Positions 25,204 to 26,397 of a DNA stretch of 64,000 nucleotides are shown in pieces (the first letter of the stretch is position 1; each line of letters begins with the position of its first letter). The stretch comes from Jiangella alkaliphila (GTDB lineage: Bacteria > Actinomycetota > Actinomycetes > Jiangellales > Jiangellaceae), in assembly GCF_900105925.1 (NCBI RefSeq), contig NZ_LT629791.1, positions 5,550,001 to 5,614,000 of the forward strand, given 5' to 3'. The position numbers were made by a program, and so were the translations under genes. The notes under the pieces are model-generated. The model searched no databases. It was not told where the DNA came from and saw only the letters and a list, made by a program, of their open reading frames with translations.

Positions 25204-25317
25204 GCGTCCCATTCTCCACCGGGAACCTGAGAGGGCGCTGATGGGTTCGCCTCGTTGTGCCGAGTCGGCCAAGCCCCCTGCTGCTCTCCATTGTCGGGGG
25301 GCCGCCCCAAGGATGGG

Positions 25318-26015
25318 CCCGGCCCCAAGCCTGCTTGAAGGCGACCTCCGCCGGCCGCTCACCGTCGTGGGTGGCGGGCGACCGACTCCGCCGCTGGTCC
25401 CGGTCCGCCAGCCTCCTCCGACCGCACCCACCTGGCTACCGACTCCGCTGTTCGTCACCCTCCGCTGGCCTCCTCACCCGCGCAGGTGCACCTCAACCCG
25501 CCAGAAGTGCGCACCCGACCCCGAACCGACCCCCAGGCGAGTAAGGAGCACCCCCAGCGAGTGAGGTGCCCCACCAACCCCGCCGGAAAGCGCTCACCCA
25601 CGCCTCCGTTCCATGATCATCAAAGAAACGGTGCGTCGGGGAGCCTGTTGCGGAATGGCGTGCGGTGGCGGGCGTTGCCGAAGAATCTTCGGCGGCCGCC
25701 GTTCTCGCCGCGACGCCCGATCGCCTTGGCCAGCCTGGTCGCCGCACCAGGCCGGGCATATCGGGCGCCGTCACGACGACCAGCCTTGCCAAGGGCGGCA
25801 CCGTGCCGTCGGCGCGTGACGCGGGCAGGAAGATCTCCGGCTCCAGCGCGTCGACCGCCGAAAGCGCAACAGGCTCCGGGGCGCACCGTTTCTTTGATGA
25901 TCATGGAACGGGTGGGGCCAGAGGAGGCCAGCGAACCCGCCACCAACAGCGGAGTCGGTCGCCAAAGGTGGCCACCGTGAGAGGCCGGCGGAGAGCGCAC
26001 AGTCAGCGGGCCTGA
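25318..26015. repeat. nested imperfect palindrome of about 700 bp
   Basis: Left-arm sequence 25318-25419 recurs inverted at 25921-26015 with roughly three-quarters identity. A related ~39-bp unit appears three times: ACCGACTCCGCCGCTGG... (25381-25419), ACCGACTCCGCTGTTCG... (25438-25476) and inverted at 25921-25959. The last two share ACCGACTCCGCTGTT and CGCTGGCCTCCTC exactly. The 306-bp element 25606-25911 lies in the centre. Confidence 0.6.
25606..25911. repeat. 306-bp MITE-like element with terminal inverted repeats
   Basis: The ends 25606-25651 and 25866-25911 are inverted repeats of about 46 bp with four central mismatches. They start CCGTTCCATGATCATCAAAG and include GGAGCCTGTTGC. Sequences inside, such as CCTTGGCCAGCCTGGTCG and its near-complement, are also partly complementary, so the whole element could fold into one long hairpin. 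There is no transposase and no clear target-site duplication. Confidence 0.6.
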
Positions 26016-26058
26016 AAGCCCGGTCCACTTTCCGGGAGGCCCCTGATGCTGTGAGAAC

Positions 26059-26150
26059 GAGGGCGCGGCGGCGCGGGTCAAGTCCAAGCCCCCGACCACA
26101 GCGCACAGCAACCACAACGGCGCGGACTTGAGGCGCGGCGCCGCGCCCTC
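26059..26150. repeat. 27-bp inverted repeat
   Basis: The arms 26059-26085 and 26124-26150 match at 24 of 27 positions, starting GAGGGCGCGGCG and ending TCAAGTCC, around a 38-nt loop. The function is unknown. Confidence 0.6.
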
Positions 26151-26210
26151 GACAATCGAACAGCAGGGGGCCGAGGAACGTGCGTTTCCAGCCGTTTCCA
26201 CCCCGCACGG

Positions 26211-26290: not shown

Positions 26291-26311
26291 TCTCGCCACA
26301 GGTCCAGACCA

Positions 26312-26360
26312 TTGACGGCGTGTCGGGCCCAGTGGTAGACCAACCGGCCAATAGGTCTAC
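26312..26360 (+). promoter_or_regulatory. candidate promoter and operator of the first ABC operon
   Basis: TTGACG (26312-26317) with an 18-bp spacer to TAGACC (26336-26341) is a plausible promoter. GTAGACC (26335-26341) and GGTCTAC (26354-26360) form a perfect 7-bp inverted repeat with a 12-bp centre covering the -10 and start site, which suggests a repressor site. The ATG of the binding protein is at 26398, with GAGG 7 nt before it. Confidence 0.4.
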
Positions 26361-26397
26361 TGGCCGCGACTCCGCGTGTCGAAATGCGAGGTACACC

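Follow-up and report, generated by a model that had tools for sequence, protein, structure and literature searches.

The palindrome upstream of dxr in Jiangella alkaliphila is a stack of repeats: a mini-element lies in the tip of a hairpin, and the hairpin lies within a larger dispersed repeat. The core of the stack ends like a transposon, is flanked by a target-site duplication, lies precisely at the hairpin apex, and is linked to an IS1182-family transposase; these features go beyond the sequence-only reading of this DNA. The genome holds the nesting, the ends, the duplication, copies of the hairpin that are empty or otherwise filled, and insertions centered on the axis of many differing stems.

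A dispersed composite palindromic repeat lies between dxr and a solute-binding-protein gene, with a TGATCAT-footed hairpin in its middle. We propose that a 236-bp mini-element inserted at the hairpin tip and duplicated 4 tip bp, mobilized in trans by a transposase of the IS1182 family whose gene lies elsewhere in the genome. The transposase would engage the extruded hairpin (cruciform) itself and join the two element ends to the two sides of the apex in a staggered manner, and gap filling would duplicate the apex. As a whole, this nested-insertion explanation is, in our judgment, quite probable. Recognition of hairpin structure by the transposase is suggested by the insertion position and the diversity of the target sequences.

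Symmetry and anatomy of the palindrome

The window, the whole stretch of DNA analyzed, has a length of 64,000 nt and comprises bases 5,550,001–5,614,000 of a genome of 7,716,500 bases. The gene beside the palindrome was identified as dxr (TIGR00243, above cut-off) and is divergent from a family-5 solute-binding-protein gene (PF00496). The sequence-only reading had placed the palindrome at 25318–26015, the query used to search the own genome by BLAST; homology to other genomic copies spans 25258–26179 and so extends beyond it. The search gave at least 61 matches (best 40 of 310 candidates), which split into an inner family (query about 289–594) and an outer family. These copies support the earlier proposal that small mobile repeats inserted repeatedly or recombined with one another.

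The structural description in that reading was borne out. It had outer inverted arms at about three-quarters identity, and we measured 76% for 25404–25475 against 25921–25992 and 71% for another pairing, 25346–25429 against 25910–25993. The enclosed 306-bp inverted-repeat element maps to 25606–25911. The 39-bp unit, described as present three times in two orientations, was located by repeat comparison at 25377–25418 and 25434–25475 (both + strand) and inverted at 25921–25963 (− strand). Identity no higher than chance had been named as the outcome that would overturn the reading; the symmetry exceeds that of shuffled sequence and of other window positions, and the palindrome is confirmed as real. 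Local alignment of the outer arms scored 54, against a maximum of 38 in dinucleotide shuffles (n = 500) and of 35 for the same layout placed at up to 500 other window positions. The two halves of the inner unit scored 98 against one another (shuffle maximum 30). Its terminal arms, 25606–25652 and 25865–25911, are complementary at 94% over 47 nt; aligned with its reverse complement, the complete unit shows 72.5% identity across 320 columns. For the 236-bp core taken by itself, the two halves scored 43, above the shuffle mean of 18.8 but within the shuffle maximum of 46, so the inner unit owes most of its symmetry to the target hairpin and the terminal repeats.

Anatomy was read from an alignment of 13 inner copies and from inspection of outer copies. 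Mini-element A (a MITE; 25641–25876, 236 bp) carries no transposase gene and has ends GAGCCTGTTGC/GCAACAGGCTC, which match those of the IS1182-type element at locus L042. Within it lies an inverted-repeat core of ~85 bp (25714–25799) that is also found alone elsewhere in the genome and genus. The mini-element is flanked by CGGG on each side (left copy, the hairpin apex, 25637–25640; right copy, 25877–25880; both +) and then by the arms CCGTTCCATGATCATCAAAGAAACGGTGCGT and GCGCACCGTTTCTTTGATGATCATGGAACGG; the junctions read TGCGT-CGGG/GAGCC...GGCTC/CGGG-GCGCACC. Joined by a single CGGG, the arms fold into a hairpin with CGGG at its tip. Alignment and folding define this target hairpin as 66 bp with feet TGATCAT/ATGATCA, its left arm (CCGTTCCATGATCATC...) at 25606–25636 and its right arm (...GATGATCATGGAACGG) at 25881–25911.

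The outer composite dispersed repeat (25258–26179) is 922 bp with the insert and 575–680 bp without it. It matches loci L039, L041, L042, L043, L046, L047, L052, and more by BLAST, and its edges are defined by the extent of homology. By eye, no convincing target duplication was found at its ends. Around the hairpin it consists of end modules, the 39-bp unit (two forward, one inverted) and a module of ~100 bp. The left end module, GCCCCCTGCTGCTCTCCATTGTCGGGGGG (25273–25301, +), is inverted relative to the right end (pair 25273–25286/26158–26171). The right end is a hairpin, GGCCCCTGATGCTGT...ACAGCAGGGGGCC (26038–26172, 85% complementary), with an inner stem at 26058–26090/26119–26151 and a center that varies among copies. 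The ~100-bp module, GTGCACCTCA...GAGTGAGGTGC (25472–25572, approximate edges), is also dispersed alone (query 176–278), for example at C1:2355923, 19467, 7271310, and 1820013.

Empty and filled hairpins and the partner element

Comparison with an empty site, as the sequence-only reading had advised, was possible within the genome. Outer copies L039, L041, and L043 hold the same hairpin, empty at the corresponding spot. At that spot, L046 carries a different mini-element of 190 bp with CATG present twice, and L042 carries a full element of 1779 bp with CGGG present twice. The rebuilt L042 target is identical to the empty L043 hairpin (C1:3848666), and the L042 CGGG is therefore truly a duplication.

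The L042 element has ends GAGCCTGTTGC/GCAACGGGCTC, a length inside the 1.6–1.9 kb size range of IS1182, and a gene for a 542-aa transposase. Against the IS1182 model NF033551 the transposase scores 266.1 bits (E 6.5e-79), slightly short of the cut-off of 270, and it passes for Pfam DUF772 and DDE_Tnp_1_6; its tree relatives at L220 (302.4) and L217 (319.5) exceed the IS1182-model cut-off. The 11-bp ends are common to the window mini-element and five full copies. Judged from ends, duplication length, and target, the mini-element was probably mobilized by this partner transposase. Its class comprises eight paired copies of 233–236 bp, five with a perfect 4-bp duplication and one with a shifted 5-bp repeat. 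Like other bacterial MITEs, these are short, lack a transposase, and have the ends and target habit of a full element in the genome; they differ in an interior unrelated to the full element (by eye) and in that all lie at hairpin tips or remnants. Three of the five full IS1182 copies in the genome are interrupted (L127, L128, and L130, at C1:297931–301139, 2761149–2765790, and 5358891–5363532), and each keeps its own hairpin and 4-bp duplication. The interrupting genes at L127 and L128 are IS256-type, the L127 protein scoring 390.7 bits on the IS256 model.

The mini-element occurs at full length and high identity at least in its own genome, the only one with such a copy among the best 40 candidates per genome in 12 genus genomes. 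Among the matches listed, a single diverged one comes from G002 (200 of 248 bases, 72%). A piece, mostly the 85-bp core, is present in at least 9 of the 12. The 85-bp core (query about 76–161) stands alone at L049–L053, L056, L057, and L060, and does so many times in G002. The partner transposase is present in two of the 12 genomes. In the named-genome collection, its relatives were found solely on two contigs of Jiangella anatolica GTF31 (81–88%, partial stretches), and the flanks on both contigs are the same as those of two loci in the congener G005. With the J. anatolica records included, G005 has three distinct copies of the insertion sequence, and an CATGATCATC arm precedes each of them on its one readable side.

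Target choice by IS1182 elements

Ends were paired across 41 loci and the window, and the 24 resulting rows represent 22 distinct insertions: five full elements, eight of ~235 bp, eight of ~190 bp, and one of 168 bp. Rows 4222208 and 5061377 each have an end in common with another row and were left out as spurious. End pairs >260 bp apart with more than one duplication mismatch were omitted, all five full copies still being present; copies whose ends are mutated (L040, L044, L045, and one at L035) stayed unpaired. A perfect 4-bp duplication flanks 19 of the 22 insertions, and in none of the 19 does the repeat exceed 4 bp. Duplications are mismatched at C1:4753322 and 5474817, and C1:6112231 has a shifted 5-bp repeat only. 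Such mismatches could stem from recombination between copies, as is argued for ISRm22 (PMC1525189).

When rebuilt targets were folded, the duplication lay exactly on the hairpin dyad in 15 of the 19. The other four are offset by 2.5, −1, 12.5, and −4.5, and include C1:5061407, where the left arm is lost. A looser folding criterion (at least 10 enclosing pairs, offset at most 2) accepted 15 of the 19 but was passed by 260 of 2000 random positions as well. Because this control is weak, a strict ungapped dyad score was used: 12 of 19 insertions reach at least 18 of 26, vs 12 of 62,869 window positions. Stems vary among targets, and the target at C1:3804365 is without TGATCA.

An alternative that we consider unlikely is recognition of primary sequence, the TGATCATC foot or another, in which case a fixed spacing from two symmetric sites would place the insertion centrally. 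Hairpins with the TGATCATC foot are favored, at 19:2 among insertions vs 7:34 among empty hairpins (Fisher p = 2e-8), in a comparison that sampled 41 of 94 hairpins and used the C-foot/G-foot split alone, as sorting by pattern misplaced GGAGAAG stems. Hairpins of this kind are also similar in length, as a fixed distance would have it. Shape is thus not the sole factor, and sequence or loop features matter too. However, the feet are unrelated at C1:3804365 (AAAACGATCAGGTGACG...) and at C1:297931 and 6076628 (TGATCATG), and relatives enter other feet (CGATTTGTG in G059 and G190; GC-rich stems in G097 and its relatives) and other stem lengths. Insertion sequences ISPsy8, IS1397, ISKpn1, and IS621 likewise insert inside palindromic repeats (REP sequences), but they belong to the IS3 and IS110 families and the REP consensus adjoins their insertion point. 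ISPsy8 inserts at the symmetry axis of the REP hairpin with a 3-bp repeat (PMC1525189), a paper whose main text names IS1182 zero times. Axis insertion into a dispersed palindrome is found in Jiangella too (the 15 of 19 above), whereas a single REP consensus is not, the stems being unrelated and the feet of more than one kind.

The analysis also covered relatives beyond the genus. The IS1182 model has matches in 79 of 197 class genomes, 14 above cut-off. Sixty copies from other genomes and two from the own genome were analyzed; ends were located in 53 of the 62 (nine without), and 24 of the 53 have complementary flanks. Copies were labeled as hairpin insertions if no more than 5 among 300 random flank pairs did equally well. 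L257 (a 113-bp inverted duplication) and L258 (its group shares a target sequence) passed but were set to "none" by hand. On a transposase tree built with four references (a one-query version reached nine transposases only), the label changes five times, vs a shuffled mean of about 17. One hairpin clade contains Jiangella, G063, G059, and G190, and the other contains genomes of another actinobacterial family, f19. Targets in G097 and relatives are GC-rich, non-repeated stems of varying length. In G059 and G190 (L220–L224, another actinobacterial family), IS1182 elements enter another type of hairpin, whose feet are CGATTTGTG/CACAAATCG.

Direct repeats in the f19 hairpin clade are 6–13 bp long, the exact end being uncertain by one or two bases. 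End pairs were found in 21 of 44 loci. In 9 of the 15 f19-clade copies with a repeat of at least 6 bp (L218, L219, L236, L237, L238, L246, L247, L250, and L253), at least 11 perfect pairs start at the next base outside; the other six (L216, L217, L241, L242, L243, and L261) have no such flush stem, and 50 of 809,616 control positions do. Since the stem begins directly outside the duplication, the duplication equals the loop in these nine. Also in the hairpin clade, L244 and L245 are without a direct repeat and L239 has a repeat with a mismatch. Other f19 subgroups showed no hairpin, and L264–L271 (eight rows) all have 6-bp repeats. In Jiangella the duplication is always 4 bp though predicted loops run from 4 to 12, which limits the equation of duplication with loop to the f19 clade.

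The target duplications of DDE transposases are normally of fixed length. If the duplication instead matches the loop, the structure of the target would decide where both strands join. On balance, we lean toward a reading in which one or two IS1182 branches read structure, capture an extruded hairpin and join at the loop base; duplication length would be set by the loop in one clade (6–13 bp), not by a constant enzyme spacing, and the Jiangella clade would have a 4-bp apex version. The choice of related insertion sequences seems to fall on hairpin tips and not on a particular sequence. Wan et al. propose for IS1272 that joining occurs at the stem foot and the hairpin is lost, and their Fig. 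13 legend has loop joining with loop duplication as a possible "pathway c" (PMC5678879). The f19-clade insertions fit this pathway, and those in Jiangella fit a version of it with a constant 4-bp apex. Among the open-access PMC papers listed, none was seen to report that IS1182 elements make loop-length duplications, and none was on Jiangella insertion sequences by title. Entry of IS1182 elements into hairpins is itself already known; in the same literature we found no earlier description of a hairpin-tip habit in this family. Separately, an IS1182 subgroup (L258, L260, L261, and L263) lies at a AATGCCGT/ACGGCAT-like sequence, so that these related elements seem sequence-specific, and L213–L215, L227, L230, and L231 are located at CTAG.

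Two IS1182-family elements of staphylococci, IS1272 and TnSha1, target hairpins without shared sequence, several of them transcription terminators, and in the cases described all of the hairpin or a portion of the stem disappears and no duplication is made (PMC5678879, PMC4923244). Replacement of this type, with the element standing where the hairpin or some of its stem had been, would involve the same transposase family and the same kind of target as here (PMC5678879, PMC4923244), but we consider it very improbable in Jiangella: a perfect 4-bp duplication is kept at most insertions, as counted above, and both arms are kept in nearly every case. It was rejected on L042 and L043, where one and the same hairpin is seen filled and empty with nothing lost. 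ISPse1 (IS1182 family, Paracoccus, 1653 bp) resembles the Jiangella elements in its 4-bp direct repeat and differs in that its account in PMC3281130, as far as it concerns the insertion, mentions no hairpin target.

Movement of the 306-bp or 922-bp palindrome as a single REP/BIME-like unit, with symmetry built in, is scarcely credible. The outer element is itself dispersed, at least as pieces, in all 12 genus genomes, but the arms around the core vary from site to site. This reading was rejected because each part is found without the other: the core in further hairpins that lack the outer repeat, and the outer repeat in copies that lack the core; among the matches listed (best 40 of 310 candidates), none places the whole nested unit at several sites.

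TGATCAT hairpins and the dxr site in congeners

The pattern TGATCATSN{12,42}SATGATCA has 94 sites in the own genome, and the same pattern read backwards has none. It was matched in 69 of 148 class genomes, with 24–141 hairpins per genome in the genus (8 of 8 genomes), 5, 107, and 160 in three other family members, and a maximum of 45 elsewhere. Stems are lineage-specific and vary by genome; the constancy of the feet is fixed by the search pattern. Like REP/BIME sequences, TGATCAT hairpins are numerous, mostly intergenic, and landing sites for insertion sequences; they differ in having a constant TGATCAT foot on stems that vary between and within lineages. A rough gene caller, trained on the window, placed 41 hairpins from 40 loci between convergent (16), codirectional (19), or divergent (2) genes, or inside a called gene (3), with one undetermined. 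Among those between convergent or codirectional genes, 29 of 35 lie within 60 bp of a gene 3′ end. In some cases the stop codon supplies the first bases of the hairpin (the TGA in TGATCA).

By this placement, TGATCAT hairpins look like putative two-way terminators. Stem-loop transcript ends without a U tract are described in Streptomyces clavuligerus (PMC8269248). TGATCA was absent from the matches listed in an open-access literature search for TGATCA hairpins. If IS1182 transposases do read structure, gene-end hairpins would serve across the genome as a landing pad that depends on shape and not on sequence, is usually located past stop codons, and is enlarged by the palindromic ends of the element itself. 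This would explain nested palindromes like the present one and offer a simple test for cruciforms at gene ends in living actinomycetes.

The sequence-only reading had also advised comparing the region upstream of dxr in relatives. BLAST found the inner element there in none of 11 congeners, two of which (L066 and L069) stop short of the solute-binding-protein gene. Six congeners (L063, L064, L065, L067, L068, and L069) have a GATCAT-footed hairpin at the site, each with another stem; four (L070–L073) have no hairpin, and L066 has other neighbors. Outer modules match in L063, L067, and L069, and the left end is visible by eye in L065. A structured regulatory RNA or an operator for dxr or the transporter gene would suit the position between divergent genes and the strong predicted structure, yet is hardly tenable given that hairpins among congeners are different or missing as counted above while the flanking gene-proximal blocks are conserved. 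No Rfam family reached its gathering score anywhere in the 64-kb window. The palindrome may have a side effect on expression.

The sequence just upstream of the solute-binding-protein gene is conserved, which places the insertions next to it. At about 26305–26370, before this gene, the window has conserved GGTCCAGACC/TGGTAGACCA/AGGTCTACTGG motifs, which we take to resemble DasR-type operators. In the left arm at L069 (G010), the 39-bp unit is expanded to a tandem array of several ~70-bp repeats.
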